DNA of 28,820 nucleotides, taken from contig MCFG01000095.1 in NCBI GenBank assembly GCA_002104895.1, positions 155,001 to 183,820 on the forward strand. The letters are read 5' to 3'. The stretch is from Anaeromyces robustus (taxonomy: Eukaryota; Neocallimastigomycota; Neocallimastigomycetes; Neocallimastigales; Neocallimastigaceae). Position numbers and translations under genes: made by a program. Below are positions 3,853-28,698 of this stretch, piece by piece; the first letter of the stretch is position 1, and every line of letters starts with the position of its first letter. The notes beneath the pieces were generated by a model, which did no database searches, was not told where the DNA came from, and worked only from the letters and a program-made list of their open reading frames with translations.

Positions 3853-4989
3853 ATGTGTACTCAATATCCAGAAATTATTATTACCAGTCCAAAGGAACCA
3901 GCTGCTTTTTACTCTGTTCCTCAAACTGTTCAAGAAAATTTATTAACTACAAATTATGAACAGTGGTGTGCTTTATATTCAATGAATGATGATGATGTAT
4001 CATTAGCATATGTTTCAAATGATTTACAAAGAGAAAGAAGACTTAGACAATATGAAAATGAATATCAATATGGTGAAGAATATAGATATGAATATAATGA
4101 TTTTGATAATGACGATTTCTTCGATAAATATCAAACATCAAGAAGAACAACTTTAGATAATGAATTCAGTAATTACAATGACACTCACTCTCAAAAATAT
4201 GAATGTTATGATAATAGAGATTATGATGATGAATATGAAGATGATGATGAATATGAAGAAGGTTTTGATTATGAATATGATTATGAATTTGATGAAAATT
4301 ATGAAGAAGAAGGAATTTTCAGAATGGAAAAAGAACCAGCTCCAGTTAGTAGACCAAGATTAAATTATGATATCATTGCTAATGCTATTAGTCGTCGTTT
4401 TAATAAATCAACTGATTCTGACGTTTCTGATGAAGAAGATGAAAATGAATCTGAAGATGAAGATACCATTGAGACTAAGATTGTTGTTAAAACACCATCT
4501 ATTAAGACTCAAGTAGCAGTAGCAACTCCAAAAAGTCATCATTATGACTTTTTTCAAAAAGAAAATATCCAAAATAATGAAGAAAGTAATAAAATGTATG
4601 ACTTCATGGAAACGATTAAAACCAAGTTTGGTCAAAAAGAAATATCTTCGTCAGTTCCAACGAAATCGGGATTCTCCATTATGAACGAAGTTATTACTGA
4701 AGGACGTATATTTGAAGGACGTGTATTTGGTATGCCAGAAGCTATGTCTAATAAGCATGGTGCAAAAAATTCATTATTTACCCATAGAAAAAGTAGTTCT
4801 ATTGGAAATACTTTAAATGAAAATAATTTCTCATCTTTGATCAAAAAAGATTGTGAAATGATTCTTAGTGGACCAATGAAAAATAGAAAGAGAGCTTATT
4901 CTTTAAATGAACCAAGTAAATTTAATCCATTAAAATTAAATAAAAATGAATTTAGTGATTTAAAGAAAAGTAAACTTTTTTGTTTTTAA
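3853..4989 (+). CDS. Acidic, Tyr-rich protein of unknown function (378 aa)
   Basis: I do not recognise a family. The 378-residue frame is clearly coding: it is much GC-richer than its surroundings and uses third-position T/A in ordinary codons. It opens with an uncharged segment (residues 1-45), then a long Asp/Glu/Tyr-dominated stretch (about 67-155), a second acidic Ser/Asp/Glu run (188-206), and a less biased C-terminal half. Residues 277-300, which contain EGRIFEGRVFGMPE, are the most domain-like part. Residues 342-350 (MKNRKRAYS) are basic and could be a nuclear localisation signal or a basophilic kinase site. No signal peptide or membrane segment is visible. Most of the chain is probably disordered. 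No intron is needed, the frame ends at TAA, and the first ATG is used as start because the frame upstream is A/T noise. Nuclear or regulatory roles are possible but speculative. Confidence 0.85.
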   Translation: MCTQYPEIIITSPKEPAAFYSVPQTVQENLLTTNYEQWCALYSMNDDDVSLAYVSNDLQRERRLRQYENEYQYGEEYRYEYNDFDNDDFFDKYQTSRRTTLDNEFSNYNDTHSQKYECYDNRDYDDEYEDDDEYEEGFDYEYDYEFDENYEEEGIFRMEKEPAPVSRPRLNYDIIANAISRRFNKSTDSDVSDEEDENESEDEDTIETKIVVKTPSIKTQVAVATPKSHHYDFFQKENIQNNEESNKMYDFMETIKTKFGQKEISSSVPTKSGFSIMNEVITEGRIFEGRVFGMPEAMSNKHGAKNSLFTHRKSSSIGNTLNENNFSSLIKKDCEMILSGPMKNRKRAYSLNEPSKFNPLKLNKNEFSDLKKSKLFCF

Positions 4990-6749: not shown

Positions 6750-7799
6750 ATAAATTATAGAATTAATAATTAATATTTGTAAGAAATATGTTAAAAATTG
6801 TAAAAAAAATTATTTTTAAATCATCTTATTGTGAATAATATTTATTAATTTTATAATTGTCAAAGAATTTGATATATGCTAAGACAAAAAGAATGTATAT
6901 AAAATAATTTATATATTTCTTTTATGTTTATTTAATATATATTCAAATTCTATTAATTAAAAAAAATAGAAAAAAAAAATCTTTTTTATAAAAAAAAAAA
7001 AGATAAAAATTAAAAAAAAAAAAAAAAACTAAACAAAAAAAAAATAACAAAAACAAAAATTAAAAAATTATAATATATAATATATAATATATAAAATTAT
7101 AGATAGTTATCCCAATTTTTTTATTTTTTTTTTTTTTTTTTTTTGATAAAAAAAAAAAAAATAAATAATGGTAAAAAAAAAAACGAATAATAAATAAAAG
7201 TTTTATTAATCGTTTTATAATAATAACGATAATTCAATGTTTTATAATAAAAAAAAAAATAAAAAAAAAAAAATAACTGAGAAAGTGAAGTGTTGTAATA
7301 TTAAAATTTTTTTTTTGTGTGTGTGTGTTTAATATTTAGTAATATTTAGTATATTATTAGGAGTTATTTTTTTATTTTTTATATTATTTTACAGATATTT
7401 TAAGAGAATAAAAATATTAAAAAAAAATTTATGTGTGTGAATTAAAATAAAATACTATAAAAGAAATAAAATAAAAGTATATTGTTAATCGTAGTAGGTA
7501 AAATTTAATCATAGTTGATAAAATATTTTGTATGATCATAGTTAAAAATTTTAACAAACACTTTATATATAAACGAACATAAAACAGTTTTTTTTTATAG
7601 ATATTTTTTTATTTATATTTTATTATTTTTTATTTTTATTAAGTATTTTAAATTACAAAAAAATTTAATAGATAGTTTTTGTTAAAATAAATTATAAATG
7701 ATTTTTTAATACTAAAAGTAAATTCAAAACTTTTTCTATAATAATATTTAATTATTTACATATATTAATAAATATTTTTTGTTTGTTTGTTTGCTTTTT

Positions 7800-7832
7800 A
7801 TTACATATATAAATAATTTTTATATATGTAAT
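7800..7832 (-). promoter_or_regulatory. 3'-flank hairpin of HSP70 copy A
   Basis: Fourteen-bp perfect arms (attacatatataaa at 7800-7813 and its reverse complement at 7819-7832) surround a 5-nt loop, 103-135 bp beyond the stop codon. The other HSP70 copy has the same structure at the same place with longer 19-bp arms. A role in 3'-end formation or mRNA stability is an inference from position and retention in both copies. Confidence 0.45.
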
Positions 7833-7934
7833 TATAAAATAATAACAGTATAATTATTTTTTTTTTCTGTTATTGTATAAATAATGATTAGAAAGATTTA
7901 AATTAAATTAAAATTTAAATTTAAATTAAACTGT

Positions 7935-9881
7935 TTAATCAACTTCTTCAACTGTTGGTCCATTATTACTACCACTATTAGCATTACCAGTAGATCCTGG
8001 GAATCCTCCTGGATAACTACCTGCTCCTGCTGCTCCTGCTGCTCCTTGATACATCTTAGTCATAATTGGATTAGCTATACCTTCTAATTCTTTTCTACGA
8101 CTTTCATATTCTTCTTTACTTGCTTCTTGATTATGATCAAGCCATGATATAGCTTCATCAATAGCTTTATTTAATTTATCTTTATCTCCTGATTCAATCT
8201 TGGAACTAATCTTTTCATCTTGAAGTGTATTACGTAATTGATAGGCATAACTTTCTAATCCATTCTTTGAAGCAACTCTTTCTGCAACTTTAGCATCTTC
8301 TTCTTTATACTTTTCTGCATCATTTACCATACGTTCAATTTCTTCTTTGGATAATCTACCTTTATCATTAGTAATAGTAATTTTATTAGAACGTCCTGTA
8401 GTTTTATCAAGTGCTGAAACATTTAAAATACCATTAGCATCAATATCAAAAGTAACTTCAATTTGTGGTACACCACGTGGTGCTGGTGGAATACCTGTTA
8501 ATTCAAATTTACCTAATAAATTATTATCACGAGTAAGAGAACGTTCCCCTTCAAAGACTTGAATATTAACAGCTGGTTGATTATCGGCATAAGTTGAGAA
8601 AATATCTGATTTCTTGGTTGGAATAGTGGTATTACGTTTAATTAAAGTTGTCATAACTCCACCAGCTGTTTCAATACCAAGTGAAAGTGGTGTAACATCT
8701 AATAAAAGTAAATCTTGAGTTTTTTCTGATGTTTCACCGGAAAGAATAGCTGCTTGTACTGCGGCACCATAGGCAACAGCTTCATCAGGATTAATGGACT
8801 TGGATGGTTCCTTACCATTGAAATAGGATGAAACTAAACTTTGAACTTTTGGAATACGAGTAGATCCTCCAACTAAAACAATTTCATGAATACTTGATTT
8901 ATCTAATTTAGCATCATTAAGTACTTTATCGACGGGTTCAATAATTTTACGGAATAAATCAGAATTTAATTCTTCAAAACGAGCACGAGTAATTGAAGTA
9001 TAGAAATCAATACCTTCATATAATGAATCAATTTCAATTGAAGTTTGAGTTGAGGAAGAAAGAGTACGTTTAGCACGTTCACAAGCTGTTCTTAAACGAC
9101 GTAAAGATCTTGGATTAGTAGAAAGATCTTTCTTATACTTTCTCTTAAATTCTTGGGCTAAATGATTAACAAGACGATTATCAAAATCTTCACCACCTAA
9201 ATGAGTATCACCAGCTGTAGCCTTAACTTCAAAAATACCATCATCAATACTTAAAAGTGAAACATCAAATGTACCACCTCCAAGATCAAAAATTAAAATA
9301 TTCTTTTCACCTTCACTTTTCTTATCAAGACCATAAGCAATAGCAGCAGCAGTTGGTTCATTAATAATACGTAAAACATTTAAACCTGCAATGTGTCCAG
9401 CATCTTTAGTAGCTTGACGTTGTGAATCATTGAAATAAGCAGGAACAGTAATAACAGCATCTTTAACTTTTTCACCAATATAAGCTTCAGCAGTATCCTT
9501 CATTTTTGTTAAAACCATACTTGATATTTCTTCAGCTGTAAAATCTTTTGTTTCTCCTTTAAATTGAACTTGAATATAAGGTTTACCTGCTTTTTCAACT
9601 ACTTTAAATGGCCAATGTTTCATATCAGATTGAACTTCCGAATCATTAAAACGACGACCAATTAAACGTTTAGCATCGAAAACAGTATTTGTTGGATTCA
9701 TAGCAGCTTGATTTTTAGCAGCATCACCAATTAAACGTTCAGAATCAGTGAAAGCAACATAAGAAGGAGTAGTACGATTACCTTGATCATTTGGAATAAT
9801 TTCTACACGATCATTTTGCCAAACACCAACACAAGAATAAGTAGTGCCTAAATCAATACCTACAGATGTAACCTTACCCAT
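7935..9881 (-). CDS. Cytosolic Hsp70 chaperone (SSA/HSPA family), copy A
   Basis: This is an ATP-dependent chaperone that binds and refolds non-native proteins in the cytosol with J-domain and nucleotide-exchange partners. The 648-residue protein has the full family layout. The nucleotide-binding domain covers about 1-385, with phosphate-1 DLGTTYS at 10-16, phosphate-2 DLGGGTFD from 199 and the adenosine motif VGGSTRIP from 337. The interdomain linker DLLLLDV follows from 390, then the beta substrate-binding domain to about 510, the helical lid to about 615, a Gly/Ala/Asn/Ser-rich tail, and terminal EEVD (645-648), which marks a cytosolic form that docks TPR co-chaperones. There is no signal or transit peptide and no intron, as is common for heat-inducible HSP70 genes. 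Length matches yeast Ssa proteins. The protein is identical to that of copy B at 12678-14624, which is transcribed divergently from it. Regulation by heat-shock factor is likely (see the element at 10396-10413). Family assignment is essentially certain; the SSA-type paralogue assignment is very likely. Confidence 0.98.
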
Positions 9882-10203
9882 TTTTTTTTATATTATTATT
9901 TTTTAAACTTTTATATAATTATTATTAACTGTTTTTTTCTAAAATAAATACTAAGTAGTTTATTCGCTTGTTTGTTTTATTTGTTTGTTTTGATTGTTTG
10001 TTTGTTTAAATTAAGAATAAATTCTTTTATTATTTACAATAAATTTATAAAATCGCTTTTTAAATAAATAATATGTTTATAATATTATTTTTTTTTGGTA
10101 TAATTGGTATAATTAATATATTAAACACTTCTTTAACTTCTAAAAGTTATATATAATAAATAAGATATAATAAATAATTGATGAAAAAAAATTTTTTAAA
10201 AAA
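9882..10203 (-). promoter_or_regulatory. Proximal promoter and 5' leader of HSP70 copy A
   Basis: About 320 bp upstream of the start codon appear identical to the upstream region of copy B; the first mismatch is at 10204-10205. Read on the minus strand it contains repeated CAAA/AAAC units (within 9967-10012) and a TATATAAA about 28-35 bp before the ATG. The A/C-rich unstructured stretch would suit a 5' leader translated under stress, as known for hsp70 leaders elsewhere. That function is inferred, and the transcription start is not visible. Confidence 0.5.
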
Positions 10204-10395
10204 ATTTGTTGTATTTATATAAAAAATTTTTATTTTTTTTAATTATTATGGAATTATATATTTATAATTATGTATTAATAATTAATAAAATTTATTATTA
10301 ATAAATAAATATTTTAAAGAAAAATTTTCAATAAAAGAATCTCATATATTAGAATATATTGGATCAATTTAAATTAATATATTAAAATAAATATA

Positions 10396-10413
10396 GTAAA
10401 TTCTCGATTTTTC
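10396..10413 (-). promoter_or_regulatory. Candidate heat-shock element, HSP70 copy A
   Basis: The plus strand reads GTAaaTTCtcGATttTTC, which is an alternating 5-bp array of nTTCn/nGAAn units with two imperfect units. The equivalent site in the other arm (12194-12211) differs at exactly three bases, all in the spacer positions between units. It lies about 515 bp upstream of the start codon, somewhat distal for an HSE. Binding of heat-shock factor is inferred. Confidence 0.5.
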
Positions 10414-11496
10414 TTGTAACATAAATAAAAAAAAAAAAAAAAAAATTTTTTTTTATCTTTATCTTTCTCTGGTGGAAAATCTTTTTTTTCTGTAATATAT
10501 AATAATTAATAATTAATAATCTATTTTTAAATATTGATTAAATAATGGAAAAATAATTTTTTAGATTTTTAAATTTTATTAATTATTTTTTTTTTTTCAA
10601 TATATATTTTCTGTATCTTTATTTCAATTTATATTATTTTAAAAGTTATATTTATTAAAAGTTTGAGAGGTTATATAAAAAGTTTTTGATTCTAAAATAT
10701 AATCTTTTTTTTTTTAGCAATAATAATAATTTATTAGATTAAGAATTCTTAACAAAATTACTATTATTTTTATTATAGAGTTTAAATTTAATATATAAAT
10801 TATAATGAATCATAATACACAATTAAAATAAAATGATCTTAAAACTAAAATTTTATTAAATTCCATAGATTAATATTATTAAAACATTGAAATTCATATG
10901 AATAAAAAGTAATATTTAATAATCTTTAATTTGACTTTTGCATTTATAAAAAATAAAGTGATCTACATTATAATAATTATTACTAGTTATTCTTTGTTAT
11001 TATTTCTTTTATTCTGTATAATAATAATATAAAATAAGTCAAAATATTTTATTACAATAATATATGATTTCTTTAAAAATAGTAAACATATTTTTTGTAA
11101 AAGTATAAATTAAAAATTTTGTTAAATAATTATTATGACTTTAATAGAAAATGTAAAATATTTTTCTGTATATTAAAAAATTTATGTTATAAATATATAT
11201 AATAACATATTAATATTAAAATTATTTTTAACTAATAATTTGAACATAATTATTTTTTAAATATTGATAGAATCAACGTAAAATAAATATTAAGAAAGAA
11301 ATTTAATAAATTAAATCGTTTTATTTAACTATCTATTATTTCCTTTTTTCTTTTACCAAAAAAAGTTAATAAAATATAATCTTTCTCTTTTTATTTAAAT
11401 TATATATTATTATTTAAACATATAACTATTAAAATCATAATAAATAATTTACTTTAAAATTTGTTTTTTTCCATATGTATAAAAATAATAATTTGG

Positions 11497-11562
11497 ATAT
11501 AGATTATCTTTATCTTTTTGTATTTAATATTATAAATACAAAAAGATAAAGATAATCTATAT
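11497..11562. repeat. Perfect 30-bp hairpin in the HSP70 spacer
   Basis: Arms 11497-11526 and 11533-11562 are exact reverse complements separated by a 6-nt loop (atatta). The arms include GATTATCTTTATC with non-random G/C positions, so this is not a simple (AT)n palindrome. It could extrude as a cruciform or mark an inverted duplication formed during replication. It sits about 10 bp before the first GTGGAA repeat unit. Confidence 0.8.
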
Positions 11563-11571
11563 AATGTTTTA

Positions 11572-11641
11572 GTGGAATATTTTTTTTTCTCTAGCAAATA
11601 ATAATTAGTAAATAAGAAAAAATTTTTTAAATATTTTTTTT
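11572..11641 (+). repeat. Direct repeat copy 1 (GTGGAA unit)
   Basis: The first 28 bp (11572-11599, ending TCTCTAGCAAAT) match 12103-12130 with one mismatch. Similarity continues as AAATAAGAAAAAA-TTTTTT-AAAT to about 70 bp. Together with a downstream ttttctattaat the two units bracket the GC-rich insertion, which suggests an ancestral tandem duplication in the spacer. Confidence 0.7.
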
Positions 11642-11643
11642 AA

Positions 11644-11694
<51 letters not shown>

Positions 11695-11695
11695 A
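11644..11695. repeat. Tetranucleotide microsatellite (TAAA)n
   Basis: About thirteen uninterrupted TAAA units, located between the direct repeat at 11572 and the GC-rich insertion. The second repeat unit at 12103 lacks this array, so it probably expanded after the duplication. Confidence 0.9.
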
Positions 11696-11714
11696 ATAAT
11701 ATTTAAATTATTAT

Positions 11715-11726
11715 TTTTCTATTAAT
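11715..11726. repeat. Putative target-site duplication, left
   Basis: The 12-mer ttttctattaat immediately precedes the T8 run that begins the GC-rich insertion; the same 12-mer recurs at 12060-12071 directly after it. A third copy at 12169-12180 weakens uniqueness, because it belongs to the duplicated spacer unit, but exact abutment on both sides fits a retroposition duplication. Confidence 0.55.
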
Positions 11727-12059
11727 TTTTTTTTATAGACTTATCATGTGATTTTTCACATGAATGTATCGGAATTAAATTCCCTGCCTTACCTTTTCGG
11801 CGTCGACGCCCTTGGTATATTCATATATTTTACATTTGTACTTAAACCCTAACGCTAACTTAATAACGGGTCCAGTCTACAAGCCCCACATATGAATAGT
11901 AGTCACCAAGGAAACCGCCCAATAATTTAGAGCCGCACCCCACATTATTAGACTTAAAGATCTACTCATATACTTATATTATTTAATGAGGCGTGAGTAG
12001 CTACGCCACAAATACTATACCTGTGCACTACCTTGCCACAGTGTAAAACCCGTGAAGGA
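11727..12059 (-). mobile_element. SINE-like retroposed element with poly(A) tail
   Basis: A 333-bp island far richer in GC than its surroundings sits in the A/T spacer and is bounded by a 12-bp direct repeat on each side. Read on the minus strand it begins tccttcacgggtttt and ends in eight A residues, as a retroposed transcript would. Just before the tail is a perfect 8-bp hairpin with a T4 loop on plus (11744-11763). Further in are the palindrome GGCGTCGACGCC (about 11800-11811) and a 5-bp GGCGT/ACGCC stem (11990-12007). A sequence fitting the pol III A box, TAGTGCACAGG, lies at 12020-12030 on minus. I find no B box. All three minus-strand frames are broken by stops, so it does not encode protein. 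It could instead be a truncated LINE 3' end or a retrocopy of a structured RNA that I do not recognise. Confidence 0.55.
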
Positions 12060-12071
12060 TTTTCTATTAAT
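12060..12071. repeat. Putative target-site duplication, right
   Basis: Exact copy of the 12-mer at 11715-11726, directly abutting the 5' end of the SINE-like element as read on minus. Confidence 0.55.
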
Positions 12072-12102
12072 AATTATAAAAATTACCAATTATTATTTTT
12101 TG

Positions 12103-12173
12103 GTGGAATAATTTTTTTTCTCTAGCAAATTATAATAAGTAAAATAAGAAAAAAATTTTTTTAAATTTTTTTC
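12103..12173 (+). repeat. Direct repeat copy 2 (GTGGAA unit)
   Basis: Matches the unit at 11572-11641 over about 70 bp with a few indels in the homopolymer runs. It is followed by ttctattaat, as is the first unit after its TAAA expansion. Confidence 0.7.
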
Positions 12174-12193
12174 TATTAATAAAATATTAACAA

Positions 12194-12211
12194 GAATAAT
12201 CCAGAAATTAC
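12194..12211 (+). promoter_or_regulatory. Candidate heat-shock element, HSP70 copy B
   Basis: GAAtaATCcaGAAatTAC fits four 5-bp units of a heat-shock element (GAA, TTC with one mismatch, GAA, TTC with one mismatch). Compared with copy A, only offsets 3, 8 and 13 differ, all between the units. The site is about 467 bp upstream of the start codon. Confidence 0.5.
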
Positions 12212-12355
12212 TATATTTATTTTAATATATTAATTTAAATTGATCCAATACATTCTAATATATAGAAATTCTATATTGATTTATTAGTTATTAAGATTTA
12301 ATTAATAAATTAATAATCAAAATAAAAAAATTTTTTTTATATAAATACAACAATA

Positions 12356-12677
12356 TTTTTTAAAAAATTTTTTTTCATCAATTATTTATTATATCTTATT
12401 TATTATATATAACTTTTAGAAGTTAAAGAAGTGTTTAATATATTAATTATACCAATTATACCAAAAAAAAATAATATTATAAACATATTATTTATTTAAA
12501 AAGCGATTTTATAAATTTATTGTAAATAATAAAAGAATTTATTCTTAATTTAAACAAACAAACAATCAAAACAAACAAATAAAACAAACAAGCGAATAAA
12601 CTACTTAGTATTTATTTTAGAAAAAAACAGTTAATAATAATTATATAAAAGTTTAAAAAATAATAATATAAAAAAAA
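12356..12677 (+). promoter_or_regulatory. Proximal promoter and 5' leader of HSP70 copy B
   Basis: About 320 bp apparently identical to the copy A promoter. It contains TATATAAA at 12643-12650, close to the ATG, and an A/C-rich run of AAAC/CAAA units at 12553-12592. Whether that TATA is used is doubtful because it would leave a very short leader. Confidence 0.5.
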
Positions 12678-14624
12678 ATGGGTAAGGTTACATCTGTAGG
12701 TATTGATTTAGGCACTACTTATTCTTGTGTTGGTGTTTGGCAAAATGATCGTGTAGAAATTATTCCAAATGATCAAGGTAATCGTACTACTCCTTCTTAT
12801 GTTGCTTTCACTGATTCTGAACGTTTAATTGGTGATGCTGCTAAAAATCAAGCTGCTATGAATCCAACAAATACTGTTTTCGATGCTAAACGTTTAATTG
12901 GTCGTCGTTTTAATGATTCGGAAGTTCAATCTGATATGAAACATTGGCCATTTAAAGTAGTTGAAAAAGCAGGTAAACCTTATATTCAAGTTCAATTTAA
13001 AGGAGAAACAAAAGATTTTACAGCTGAAGAAATATCAAGTATGGTTTTAACAAAAATGAAGGATACTGCTGAAGCTTATATTGGTGAAAAAGTTAAAGAT
13101 GCTGTTATTACTGTTCCTGCTTATTTCAATGATTCACAACGTCAAGCTACTAAAGATGCTGGACACATTGCAGGTTTAAATGTTTTACGTATTATTAATG
13201 AACCAACTGCTGCTGCTATTGCTTATGGTCTTGATAAGAAAAGTGAAGGTGAAAAGAATATTTTAATTTTTGATCTTGGAGGTGGTACATTTGATGTTTC
13301 ACTTTTAAGTATTGATGATGGTATTTTTGAAGTTAAGGCTACAGCTGGTGATACTCATTTAGGTGGTGAAGATTTTGATAATCGTCTTGTTAATCATTTA
13401 GCCCAAGAATTTAAGAGAAAGTATAAGAAAGATCTTTCTACTAATCCAAGATCTTTACGTCGTTTAAGAACAGCTTGTGAACGTGCTAAACGTACTCTTT
13501 CTTCCTCAACTCAAACTTCAATTGAAATTGATTCATTATATGAAGGTATTGATTTCTATACTTCAATTACTCGTGCTCGTTTTGAAGAATTAAATTCTGA
13601 TTTATTCCGTAAAATTATTGAACCCGTCGATAAAGTACTTAATGATGCTAAATTAGATAAATCAAGTATTCATGAAATTGTTTTAGTTGGAGGATCTACT
13701 CGTATTCCAAAAGTTCAAAGTTTAGTTTCATCCTATTTCAATGGTAAGGAACCATCCAAGTCCATTAATCCTGATGAAGCTGTTGCCTATGGTGCCGCAG
13801 TACAAGCAGCTATTCTTTCCGGTGAAACATCAGAAAAAACTCAAGATTTACTTTTATTAGATGTTACACCACTTTCACTTGGTATTGAAACAGCTGGTGG
13901 AGTTATGACAACTTTAATTAAACGTAATACCACTATTCCAACCAAGAAATCAGATATTTTCTCAACTTATGCCGATAATCAACCAGCTGTTAATATTCAA
14001 GTCTTTGAAGGGGAACGTTCTCTTACTCGTGATAATAATTTATTAGGTAAATTTGAATTAACAGGTATTCCACCAGCACCACGTGGTGTACCACAAATTG
14101 AAGTTACTTTTGATATTGATGCTAATGGTATTTTAAATGTTTCAGCACTTGATAAAACTACAGGACGTTCTAATAAAATTACTATTACTAATGATAAAGG
14201 TAGATTATCCAAAGAAGAAATTGAACGTATGGTAAATGATGCAGAAAAGTATAAAGAAGAAGATGCTAAAGTTGCAGAAAGAGTTGCTTCAAAGAATGGA
14301 TTAGAAAGTTATGCCTATCAATTACGTAATACACTTCAAGATGAAAAGATTAGTTCCAAGATTGAATCAGGAGATAAAGATAAATTAAATAAAGCTATTG
14401 ATGAAGCTATATCATGGCTTGATCATAATCAAGAAGCAAGTAAAGAAGAATATGAAAGTCGTAGAAAAGAATTAGAAGGTATAGCTAATCCAATTATGAC
14501 TAAGATGTATCAAGGAGCAGCAGGAGCAGCAGGAGCAGGTAGTTATCCAGGAGGATTCCCAGGATCTACTGGTAATGCTAATAGTGGTAGTAATAATGGA
14601 CCAACAGTTGAAGAAGTTGATTAA
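12678..14624 (+). CDS. Cytosolic Hsp70 chaperone (SSA/HSPA family), copy B
   Basis: The 648-residue protein is identical at every residue to that encoded at 7935-9881 on the opposite strand, with the same ATPase motifs (DLGTTYS 10-16, DLGGGTFD from 199, VGGSTRIP from 337), linker from 390, substrate-binding domain, lid and terminal EEVD. The two coding regions look the same at the nucleotide level too, including synonymous positions, wherever I compared them. That exceeds what selection on protein alone would preserve and points to recent duplication or gene conversion. The start is the first ATG after an A-rich leader, and the frame is intronless with a TAA stop. A divergent pair with shared spacer fits co-induction of a highly expressed stress gene. 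Reading frames on the opposite strand inside this gene are shadows. Confidence 0.98.
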
Positions 14625-15412
14625 ACAGTTTAATTTAATTTAAATTTAATTTTAAATTTAATTTAAATCTTCATCTTCATAATCATTATTTATATAATAA
14701 CAGAAAAAAAAATTAATTATACTATTATTATTTTTTAATTACATATATAAAAATTATTTATATATGTAATTAAAAGCAAACCAAGATATTTATTAATATA
14801 TGTAAATAATTAAATATTATTATAGAAAAAGTTTTGAATTTACTTTTAGTATTAAAAAATCATTTATAATTTATTGTAACAAAAACTATCTATTAAATTT
14901 TTTATAATTTAAAATACTAAATAAAATAAAAAATAATAAAATATAATAAAAAAATATAAAAAAAACTGTTTTATGTTCATTATTTATATGTAAATAAAAA
15001 TGAGTGTTTGTTAAAATATTTTATATGATTATAGTTAATGTTTTATCAATTATGATTAAATTTTACCTACTATGATTAACAGTATATATTTTTCTTTTAA
15101 TGTTTTTCTTTTATTTATTTTATTTTTTTATATTTTATCTTACATTTATATTTTACAGATATTTTAAAAGAATAAAAATAAAAATAAAAATAAATATTTA
15201 AATTAAAAATTAAAAAATTAAAATATAATACTTATAAATAATTATTACGTTATTTGTAAGTATTTCTTTCAACCATAAAAAAAAATTATTATACTTCCAA
15301 TAATATATTAAATATTACACACAAAAAAATATTTTAACTTTAATATTACAATACTTTATTTTCTAAGTTATTTTTTTTATTTTTTTATTATAAAAAGATT
15401 AATAAAACTTAT
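14625..15412 (+). other. Diverged 3' flank of HSP70 copy B
   Basis: Aligns with the reverse complement of 7190-7934 but with many substitutions and indels, starting about 14 bp after the stop codon. It contains the hairpin at 14733-14775. No gene is present. The abrupt change from apparent identity to divergence at 14638/14639 marks one edge of the presumed conversion tract. Confidence 0.8.
14733..14775 (+). promoter_or_regulatory. 3'-flank hairpin of HSP70 copy B
   Basis: Nineteen-bp perfect arms (ttttaattacatatataaa at 14733-14751 and its complement at 14757-14775) with loop aatta, 109-151 bp after the stop codon. Copy A keeps 14 bp of this stem at the same relative place. A 3'-UTR or 3'-processing role is inferred. 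Confidence 0.5.
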
Positions 15413-15548
15413 ATTATGAATATAAAAAAGAAGGATATTGATGAAATCTATATTATTAATTCAGATATATTATTAATTTTTAAATTATAAAATAAAAGTT
15501 ATTTTAAATTTTAATCAAAATGATTATCTATATACTTCCAATAAGATA

Positions 15549-23965: not shown

Positions 23966-26377
23966 ATGATGGAAAATAATGAGTACTGTTATCAAGGTGA
24001 AAATAAAGAAATGTACGAAATAATGTACAATAATTATAAAAAATCACTTAGTATTACAGAAAAAACAAAAACTGACTGGAATAATGAAAGTGGTTCAATT
24101 TCTGATGGAACACTTATAATGGATGAGCTTGTTGAATCACCAGAATCAAAAAGTTCTAAAATAATTTCAAGAATTGATGATAGTGATTTTTATAATTATA
24201 ATTTCATTGATCATTTTTATCATAAAAATGCTAATGAAATTAAAAAAATTGATTCCGATGATAGTACTTATGATGGTGACCAAAATGAATTAAGTCGTGA
24301 AAACACACTTACTCAACCATCAGAAATTGACCTTGAAAAAAACCAAGAATTTATTAAAATCGACAATGAAAAAATCGATAATAAAGAATCTTCTGAAATT
24401 ACCAAGGAAATCGAAAAAGAAAACAAAGAAAAAAATGATATCATTGTAAAGGATACACTTAGTGTTCCAAAAGTTGATATTGATATTTCTTTTTTTAATA
24501 ATGAAGAAGAAGAAGATGAAGAAGAAGATTATAATAATACTAATATATTATTTATACCCGAAAGTATAGAGAAGGAACTTTGCCTTAGCTCTTTCAAATA
24601 TTCAAAAACTGTTAATAAAGATAAAAAGAAAAGCCATAAAAAATGTAAAAGTGATGGAGCCTACATTATCATGAAACATAATAAAAGTGATTCCAAATCA
24701 GAAGATCAAGAATCTATTAATAAAGATAATAATAATGATATCAACTCTTCATCTTCTAGTAATAGAAATAAAAATGAAAATAAGATTCGCGGAATAAAAC
24801 GTTCTCAATCTACTAGAAATTGCCCTCCTGTTCCACCAAGAGGAATAAGTAAAATCCATATGAAAGAAAGAATGAGGACTCATATAAAAAGTGAAAGCTT
24901 AAGTAAATCTGAAAAAAAATCAGGTTATCCTTATAAATTCTTTGATATAGAGGAAATATCTAGAACTCTTTCTCTTCAAAGACGTCATAATGAAGCTGAA
25001 TTTGAGACTTACTTAAAAAGAAAATATAGAGAAAATAAAATTAAAATTCTCTACAGAAATGATTATTATATGCAAAAAATTGATGATAAAGATTATGAAA
25101 CTTATGATAAGGCCTTATTTGATGAACAGCTCTTTAAAAACGTTGAAAAAAATGAAACCGATTGTACTTCTTTACAAAAACAAAGTTCAACAGCTAATGA
25201 TTCTCTCTTCAATAAATTACCTTTTAATATTTTATATAAAAAGGAAAGAAATCCAAATATTATTACTCAACGTTATCAACAATTAGTTGAAAGAATCCAA
25301 AAGAATTTAAGAGAAAGAGCTTTATTAGAAGAAGAAGAAAAAAAGGAACAAGAAAATACTAAAACTTTTATAAATTCCAATAATGAAAAAGAAGTTGATA
25401 TAGAAGAAAAGAAAGGAGAAAAAGAAGGTAAAGATATCATAGAAGAAGAAAATGATGAAGGAAAAGATATTGTAGAAGGAGAATATGATAATAGTGATAA
25501 TGATGAAAAGAAAAATATAAATAAATCTCATCGTCATGCTGTTGTAAATTTCAATGATCTTTTAGTATCTTTTACTTCTTCTAATGTTATATCTTCTTCA
25601 TTTTCTTCATCATCATCATCATCTCAATCAACTTCTACTACATCTTCTTCATCATCAATTAATTTAAGTCATCCTAATAGAACTACTTCATTTAATCATC
25701 CACCACCACGTAAACATTATCATCTTTCTAGAACAAAGAAGAATAATAAAGTTAGTAATATTACTACTAAAAATCATAATGATACCCAAAAATCATCAAG
25801 TCATATTTCCTCTTCAAGAGTTTCTAATCCAGAATTATCAAAATCTTCAAGAATATCAAATAAATCATCTTTTTCACATACCTCAACTTCTTCTTCTTTA
25901 TCTTGTTCTACTTCCGTATCTTCTAATTGTTCAACCGAAAAAGAAAACATAACAAGAAATAGTAATTCTTCTACTTGCTCTTCTTCCTCCTCTACTATTG
26001 TTAGTGCTACTACTCCTTCCACTCCTACTGTTTATGCACAACCCTATGATTATTACCAACAATATAATACATATGGAAAAAAATTAAGTCCTTTAATACG
26101 TCGTGATCATACTTACATAAAACAATACTATCCATACCAAGCACCAACTTATGATGATTATTGTAATAAACCTTTAAATCCAATGATGAGTTCTTATAAC
26201 TTATCAAAACCAATATCAACATCTACATCTACATCTACATCTTCATCTACATCTACTACAAACACAAAAAAATTAACACCAAACTATATGAATTCTAATT
26301 TTACTTGTTATTATAATTATAATAAAACATATAATCTTCCCTATACTTCTGGTTCAGATGTTCTTACATCTTATTAA
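23966..26377 (+). CDS. Large disordered Ser-rich protein with SH3-ligand motif (803 aa), function unknown
   Basis: I do not recognise a family. The 803-residue frame is intronless with strong coding composition. Its N-terminal part (1-270) is Asp/Glu/Lys/Asn-rich with an acidic run at 180-188. Around 279-293 is a basic and proline-rich segment, RSQS...PPVPPRG, matching the class II SH3 ligand PxxPxR (P287, P290, R292). The most ordered-looking part (about 300-465) is charged and probably helical, ending in a Glu/Lys-rich coiled-coil-like stretch near 455. Then come Lys/Glu repeats, a poly-Ser tract (533-568), more Ser/Thr-rich sequence, a Tyr/Gln-rich segment (from about 690) and an Ile-Ser-Thr repeat near 750-765. 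No signal peptide or membrane helix is seen. A cortical or cytoskeletal signalling adaptor is plausible from the SH3 motif but unproven. The start is the first of two adjacent ATGs; the second would shorten the protein by one residue. Confidence 0.85.
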   Translation: MMENNEYCYQGENKEMYEIMYNNYKKSLSITEKTKTDWNNESGSISDGTLIMDELVESPESKSSKIISRIDDSDFYNYNFIDHFYHKNANEIKKIDSDDSTYDGDQNELSRENTLTQPSEIDLEKNQEFIKIDNEKIDNKESSEITKEIEKENKEKNDIIVKDTLSVPKVDIDISFFNNEEEEDEEEDYNNTNILFIPESIEKELCLSSFKYSKTVNKDKKKSHKKCKSDGAYIIMKHNKSDSKSEDQESINKDNNNDINSSSSSNRNKNENKIRGIKRSQSTRNCPPVPPRGISKIHMKERMRTHIKSESLSKSEKKSGYPYKFFDIEEISRTLSLQRRHNEAEFETYLKRKYRENKIKILYRNDYYMQKIDDKDYETYDKALFDEQLFKNVEKNETDCTSLQKQSSTANDSLFNKLPFNILYKKERNPNIITQRYQQLVERIQKNLRERALLEEEEKKEQENTKTFINSNNEKEVDIEEKKGEKEGKDIIEEENDEGKDIVEGEYDNSDNDEKKNINKSHRHAVVNFNDLLVSFTSSNVISSSFSSSSSSSQSTSTTSSSSSINLSHPNRTTSFNHPPPRKHYHLSRTKKNNKVSNITTKNHNDTQKSSSHISSSRVSNPELSKSSRISNKSSFSHTSTSSSLSCSTSVSSNCSTEKENITRNSNSSTCSSSSSTIVSATTPSTPTVYAQPYDYYQQYNTYGKKLSPLIRRDHTYIKQYYPYQAPTYDDYCNKPLNPMMSSYNLSKPISTSTSTSTSSSTSTTNTKKLTPNYMNSNFTCYYNYNKTYNLPYTSGSDVLTSY
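26216..26258 (+). repeat. In-frame Ser-Thr microsatellite inside the 803-aa gene
   Basis: Repeated tctaca hexamers (coding Ser-Thr) with a few changed units encode the STSTST run near residues 751-765. It could vary in length between strains without breaking the frame. Confidence 0.75.
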
Positions 26378-27882: not shown

Positions 27883-28698
27883 ATGGATCATACGAACTAT
27901 ACTAATAAGATTAACTATATCAGACGGGGTATTAGGTGTCATGGTATTGATATCTCAGATACTTATGTTATTTTTATCCGTCGCATTCGTTCTTGGACTC
28001 TTCCAAAATTTAGAAATTTTCTTGAGAAGAATTTCCCTGAGTTTAATAATACCATCGTTGCTGTTAAACATTCCTCTCTTCTTAATGATAATTTATATCA
28101 AATTAAAACTACAGCTTCTGAGGAGAATATTAATAAATTTATTGATAGTTTCAAATTAATTATTAAAAAATGTTCCATTAACTTTCATCGATGTAGTAGG
28201 AAGAATCACAAGCCTTCCTTTGCTCTTATCAGGAGAAAACTTTGCCACTCTAAAAAGAACATTAAGGATATTACTGACTTTTCTGAAATCAACAATTCTT
28301 TTACTTCTAAGAACAATTTGAATGAATTTTCCTTTTGTCTTAGTTGGAACACTAACGGGTGGAATAACAAGAAAAGAGATGGTATTCTGTATTTCTTTAG
28401 TCTCTTTAAACCGCTATTTGTTTGTTTTCAAGAAACTGGTAATGGTACTAATTCTAATAATGTTATTCCTTGTAAAATCACTTTACCTAAATATAAATAT
28501 TTCTGTAAGAGAGCAAATAATACAATTCCTGGTTTGAGAGGTTTATATATCTTTTATAATAGGTCTTTACAGACTTCTATTGAAGATTTTTCTTTGAATT
28601 ATATTATCTCAGTTACGACATATTCCTTGTGGAACTTCACTAAGTGTTCTATTGGAAATATTTATATACCTCAGAAAGGGCATAGTTTTACACCATAA
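27883..28698 (+). CDS. LINE ORF, N-terminal part with endonuclease domain, frameshifted
   Basis: The 271-residue frame starts with about 140 residues of basic sequence with a Cys/His-containing patch (FHRCSRKNH), possibly nucleic-acid binding. The endonuclease domain follows, with N156/N158 in WNTNG (155-159), catalytic Glu184 in QETG (183-186) and NIYIPQ at 259-264. The enzyme would nick target DNA to prime reverse transcription. The frame ends prematurely at 28696-28698; the fourth motif, LLGDFN, is in the +1 frame immediately downstream. The reading frame is also open upstream of the ATG through a T-rich tract to before 27841, so the true start could be further upstream or in another exon. 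The expected intact protein would be far longer than this. Confidence 0.75.
   Translation: MDHTNYTNKINYIRRGIRCHGIDISDTYVIFIRRIRSWTLPKFRNFLEKNFPEFNNTIVAVKHSSLLNDNLYQIKTTASEENINKFIDSFKLIIKKCSINFHRCSRKNHKPSFALIRRKLCHSKKNIKDITDFSEINNSFTSKNNLNEFSFCLSWNTNGWNNKKRDGILYFFSLFKPLFVCFQETGNGTNSNNVIPCKITLPKYKYFCKRANNTIPGLRGLYIFYNRSLQTSIEDFSLNYIISVTTYSLWNFTKCSIGNIYIPQKGHSFTP

Follow-up and report, generated by a model that had tools for sequence, protein, structure and literature searches.

Head-to-head HSP70 genes with an identical core, probably maintained by gene conversion, in a genome with many head-to-head HSP20 pairs

Introduction

How do two neighbouring genes remain identical to the last base when the DNA on either side of them has diverged? 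The question is raised by a 28,820-bp stretch of DNA (C765:155001-183820; hereafter the window) in which two HSP70 genes stand head-to-head within a long inverted repeat. The window comes from a 70.17-Mb assembly of 769 contigs, apparently from an early-diverging fungus, and all comparisons described here were made within this one genome. Its base composition, together with the glycoside hydrolase genes listed below, suggests an anaerobic gut fungus (Neocallimastigomycetes). The explanation that we favour, with a probability of roughly 0.8, is that an inducible cytosolic HSP70 gene was long ago duplicated head-to-head and that ectopic (interlocus) gene conversion has since maintained the identity of the two arms. 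An initial annotation of the window had likewise proposed an older inverted duplication homogenised by gene conversion, and this is still the best reading of the evidence, which consists of a contrast between leader and flank, a second HSP70 pair built in the same way, and a conflict between coding and upstream trees in the HSP20 family.

The HSP70 pair and its identical core

The left HSP70 gene (7935-9881, minus strand; found in the whole-genome search) and the right one (12678-14624, plus strand) diverge from each other as open reading frames of 648 amino acids, both ending in PTVEEVD; the C-terminal EEVD is a mark of cytosolic-type HSP70. The HSP70 domain is full length (Pfam PF00012, 891.4 bits, profile positions 2-599 of 599; the right copy was scored and the left is identical). 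The two genes had been described as encoding the same 648 residues, and the agreement extends to the codons, none of which differs (0/648). The identical core is likewise exact to the base, with the sharp edges originally reported: 7921-10203 (minus strand) is the reverse complement of 12356-14638 (plus strand) over 2,283 bp with no differences. Each arm of the core comprises a 322-bp leader upstream of the ATG, the coding sequence and 14 bp past the stop codon.

Outside the core, homology weakens on both sides. When identity was plotted in 50-bp bins, it stood at 100% in the core and dropped at both edges, a pattern unlike uniform divergence. At the inner edge successive bins fell through 100, 92, 60 and 42%, with the drop completed in roughly 100 bp, while at the outer edge the first nine bins ranged from 72 to 98%. 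The outer (3') flanks, which run from 7444 to 7920 on the left and from 14639 to 15126 on the right (477-488 bp past the core), differ at 35 of 458 aligned sites and by 11 indels, so that the flanks are indeed aligned but diverged, as had been claimed. Past the core, 3' flanks return to near-identity in exact stretches of 90 and 98 bp. The overall size of the inverted repeat had been put at 3.2 kb, a figure which holds if unalignable gaps are allowed; continuous BLAST homology between the arms is limited to 7444-10248 and 12311-15126 (97.2% identity, including the core). Beyond this lie islands, one at 10328-10465 that matches 12137-12279 in inverted orientation at 85%, and an outermost one at 7193-7226 and 15382-15415 at 91%. 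The spacer between the core arms (10204-12355) is mostly unalignable between them.

The position of the core relative to promoter-like elements corrects one part of the earlier description, in which conversion was said to cover promoter plus coding sequence. A putative TATA-like box, TATATAAATAC, ends 7 bp short of the core on each side (10211-10221, minus strand; 12338-12348, plus strand), and the identical block thus starts 7 bp downstream of it. Further into the spacer are sites resembling a heat-shock element (HSE), GAAAAATCGAGAA on the left (10401-10413, minus strand) and GAATAATCCAGAA on the right (12194-12206, plus strand), each within one of the two inner islands. A promoter role for these elements is putative, since TATA-like words occur often where DNA is so AT-rich (gene-free 1-kb stretches of the window are mostly 9-13% GC), and the HSE-like sites are not significant from the window alone. 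As both kinds of element lie outside the core, the homogenised unit is the leader and coding sequence.

A second HSP70 pair

Another contig, C35, carries a second head-to-head HSP70 pair of the same build (C35:266099-268042, minus strand, and C35:269509-271452, plus strand). Its exact block is 2,285 bp long, starts about 35 bp downstream of a TATA-like box and ends within 82 bp after the stop codon; none of its 647 codons differs between mates, and its leader is unchanged at all 259 sites compared, against 19 mismatches in 317 sites of the outer flank (p = 1.4e-5). The pairs themselves are well separated, agreeing at 90.4% of residues and differing at 70 of 180 fourfold sites, and their leaders differ freely. 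These comparisons of HSP70 codons, and of third-position GC below, exclude the HSP70s on C763 and C36, whose ATG-started frames lack the N-terminus. The upstream arms of the two pairs showed no local similarity above shuffled sequence, so that descent of both from a single ancestral inverted pair finds no support there.

The two pairs together bear on an alternative, a single recent inverted duplication whose flanks would only look diverged through faster mutation or slippage in AT-rich intergenic DNA. Many of the flank differences are in fact indels or A/T changes in runs, as this account would have it. However, the leader is equally AT-rich (12% GC over 300 bp) and has homopolymer runs of its own, yet it differs at 0 of 322 sites where the outer flank differs at 35 of 458; with only this non-coding sequence compared, and substitutions alone counted, Fisher's exact test gives p = 8.6e-9. 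Composition and constraint are insufficient to account for the identity, because an AT-rich, non-coding leader is unchanged between arms while leaders differ freely between pairs. A recent duplication would, moreover, need to have occurred twice with the same edges, and we consider it very improbable.

Gene conversion between the arms fits a further feature of C35. This contig also carries two Hsp104/ClpB-like genes (about 254973-291944) that face each other across about 31 kb, with the HSP70 pair between them. These copies are 83% alike, no closer to one another than to a copy on C139; their lack of homogenisation at this distance fits a need for closeness in conversion. The Hsp104/ClpB-like and HSP70 genes make up a set of four chaperone genes, all pointing outwards.

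HSP20 pairs in the same genome

The head-to-head layout recurs on a much larger scale among the small heat-shock proteins. The assembly contains 55 matches to PF00011 (HSP20), and 42 of the 46 HSP20 genes in the stretches fetched for analysis fall into 21 head-to-head pairs. Among HSP20 neighbours less than 10 kb apart, 21 are head-to-head, 12 tail-to-tail and one same-strand (on C60), a count based on 54 of the 55 matches after one fragment of the same gene was dropped. The glycoside hydrolase families of this assembly, which encodes GH48 (8 matches), GH11 (34) and GH6 (12), served as a comparison: GH11 and GH6 neighbours within the same distance are same-strand in six cases and head-to-head in one, excluding same-frame repeats (GH11 on C346, C110 and C122; GH6 on C34). 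Head-to-head layout as a general trait of local duplicates is rejected by these mostly same-strand neighbours. The contrast in layout between the HSP20 genes plus the two HSP70 pairs and the GH11/GH6 genes gives a Fisher p of 7.9e-6, although the HSP20 neighbours are not independent, because pairs were copied as the arrays grew, and long stretches of C49 and C66 are similar. No neighbouring inverted pairs were seen for tubulin or HSP90. On C366, two actin copies are oriented outwards with about 13.5 kb between them, and the layout is therefore not limited to chaperones.

Evidence that coding and upstream sequences have had different histories comes from a group of HSP20 pairs on C299, C304, C120 and C165. 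The upstream sequences of 14 arms fall into two clusters, and each of the seven pairs (7/7) has one arm in each; with midpoint rooting, support is 100 (ultrafast bootstrap) and 1.0 (SH) for one side, and 61 and 0.67 for the other. The coding sequences cluster instead by locus, and the mates on C304, C120 and C165 are sisters. Forcing these mates together in the upstream tree costs 417.5 log units (approximately unbiased (AU) test, p = 3.6e-4), and forcing the grouping by side on the coding sequences costs 246.4 log units (AU p = 1.5e-8). The short-spacer pair on C165 was omitted from the upstream tree and C65 from both trees. Since the upstream clusters are only about half identical to each other, they may be two unlike sides of one spacer. 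The conflict between the two trees shows that, in this group, pairs multiplied as units and their coding sequences were later homogenised by conversion, with the promoters kept apart; other pairs are not homogenised. Over the whole set, 7 of the 21 head-to-head pairs have mates that are sisters, where 500 shuffles gave a mean of 0.57 and at most 3. Homogenisation is plainest in the pair C767a, where 557 of the 558 coding sites aligned are equal and flank bins are mostly around 50%.

Two further observations concern apparent repeats at HSP20 loci. Contig C73 carries a near-perfect palindrome (C73:129001-138717) that contains two mirror-image head-to-head HSP20 pairs and reaches the contig end. 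Of 3,823 positions compared in it, 83 mismatch, almost all of them within the central loop, and a fold-back error during assembly may have produced it. On C66, a seemingly exact run of 2,150 bp turned out to consist of masked letters aligned with one another, with no repeat beneath.

Assembly error is also an alternative for the HSP70 pairs themselves. True differences between the arms could have been erased when the consensus was called or polished with reads that fit either arm. Such smoothing would be expected to leave the exact identity seen over 2.28 kb in the two pairs, and the 3.8-kb-arm palindrome at the end of C73 suggests that fold-back errors may occur in this assembly. Many neighbouring HSP20 copies in the same assembly nevertheless still differ by 1-4%. 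Flanks and spacer sides are not the same for the two arms, so both loci are real, and the promoter-leader region has no third copy with a score close to theirs (the next best is at 69%). Smoothing alone cannot yield the HSP20 tree conflict, since the HSP20 copies differ. We regard an artefact as unlikely, though it keeps some weight.

Several points weigh against conversion as the explanation, the chance of such smoothing among them. For the HSP70 pairs, concerted evolution would be read from the flank contrast only; the coding/upstream conflict was found for HSP20 alone, within one genome. Mates are not sisters in 14 of the 21 HSP20 head-to-head pairs, and several arms on C66 and C49 are closest to arms of other pairs. 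Some mates are well diverged, at 28% of sites in the two C73 pairs (which are copies of each other) and at 18% in the pair C767b. Third-position GC is 0.088 and 0.100 in the two putatively converted HSP70 pairs and 0.127, 0.157 and 0.276 in three other HSP70s. This is the opposite of what GC-biased conversion would produce, and that form of conversion was rejected.

HSE-like sites and a proposed mechanism

The distribution of the HSE-like sites was followed with a gapped word, GAANNWTSNNGAA, chosen after inspecting several promoters. Within the window it has three matches against 0.83 expected, a number reached in 6 of 100 shuffles and not significant alone. Across the fetched sequence it is present in 22 of 23 head-to-head spacers (40 sites in 31,957 bp, masked letters counted), in 2 of 11 tail-to-tail spacers (2 sites in 27,918 bp), and at six sites in 83,169 bp of other fetched sequence; shuffled head-to-head spacers had a mean of 0.19 and at most 2. 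The word occurs within 700 bp upstream of 42 of 53 chaperone genes and was not found in 35,933 bp downstream of such genes. It is absent from the 700 bp upstream of the single HSP70 on C63 and of a BiP-like gene on C6. The two kinds of pair differ in arrangement: 18 of the 21 HSP20 head-to-head spacers have one HSE-like cluster, which in 14 of those lies at 0.40-0.61 of the spacer, while both HSP70 pairs have two mirror-image HSE-like sites each.

Under the favoured explanation, one arm would serve during repair as template for the other. Conversion tracts would span the transcribed part of the gene and give out once homology is gone, just short of the TATA-like box at the inner edge and beyond the stop codon at the outer. 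Each gene would thereby retain its own promoter, with TATA-like box and HSE-like site, as protein and leader are corrected together, and the likely benefit would be a double, undiminished supply of one chaperone, controlled by heat shock. A broader proposal, which we would put at even odds, is that the inducible chaperone genes of this fungus work in units of one head-to-head pair. Gene bodies would point away from a shared or mirrored centre bound by heat-shock factor, conversion would rewrite the bodies but stop at the promoters, and arrays would grow by duplication of whole pairs, so that dose rises while the promoter halves keep their own history.

The edges of the identical blocks also invite another source for the template, namely the transcript (as cDNA or RNA) rather than the other DNA arm. 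Both HSP70 blocks start just past the TATA-like box (at 7 and about 35 bp) and extend 14 or 82 bp past the stop codon, and in the HSP20 pair C767a the identical stretch is nearly the coding sequence alone. Conversion between DNA arms, however, would end at the same points if only the transcribed body, being constrained, had retained homology, and the near-identity that resumes past the core is less simply explained by a normal transcript 3' end. We give a transcript template hardly any credence beside conversion from the other arm.

Relation to known systems

The hsp70 genes at Drosophila 87A form a divergent pair subject to concerted evolution, the parallel first drawn for this locus. That parallel is apt, in that inverted heat-shock pairs under conversion are established in flies and worms. 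For Drosophila Hsp70, conversion is described "at least among transcribed sequence" (PMC2871787), which matches the core edges found here. In Caenorhabditis elegans, the adjacent inverted genes hsp70-7 and hsp70-8 and an hsp16 inverted repeat are subject to conversion (PMC3966223), a likeness that takes in HSP70 and small heat-shock proteins alike. The present case differs from the Drosophila one in lying in a fungal-type genome, and just one such genome, with two HSP70 pairs on two contigs and a large HSP20 set of the same layout, and from the Caenorhabditis one in having 21 HSP20 head-to-head pairs, 14 of them with the single central cluster described above. The mammalian HSPA1A and HSPA1B genes are a near-identical inducible HSP70 pair for which conversion and purifying selection are described (PMC5865164); those genes are tandem, whereas the pairs here are head-to-head and show no rise in third-position GC.

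Anaerobic fungi have been reported to have the highest share of HSP20 and HSP70 genes among fungi, with heat induction of both families in two species (PMC10512342). The text consulted contains nothing on gene order, and the strings "paralog" and "duplicat" have no occurrences in that paper. As far as the literature was searched, the spread of a head-to-head layout across a fungal HSP20/HSP70 complement, often around a central HSE-like cluster, is new. It would extend the concerted evolution of inverted heat-shock pairs to an apparent early-diverging fungus, and it suggests how the large HSP20/HSP70 set of anaerobic fungi is arranged and kept uniform. With many replicate pairs of differing age and spacing in one genome, it becomes possible to measure how far conversion tracts reach with respect to promoter, leader, coding sequence and distance.

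Other features of the window

The window contains no N letters, and no known RNA families were found in it at gathering score. On the right side of the axis only, the spacer carries a high-copy dispersed repeat of about 335 bp (11726-12059). It was scored at 40 places (of 260 candidates) including the window copy, the other 39 at 98-100% identity, and it looks recently spread. The repeat adjoins an AATA run (11642-11695) and is flanked by an 87% direct repeat (11560-11647 and 12091-12183). The spacer also has a 66-bp near-perfect palindrome (11497-11562, 96% self-complementary). Two open reading frames flank the HSP70 pair, at 3853-4989 (378 amino acids) and 23966-26377 (803 amino acids); both are acidic and rich in serine and asparagine, with no match to Pfam families. 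A third, at 27883-28698 (271 amino acids), also has no Pfam match; its start recurs on C6 (172168-173883, 571 amino acids), and by eye it resembles part of a long interspersed nuclear element (LINE)-type element.
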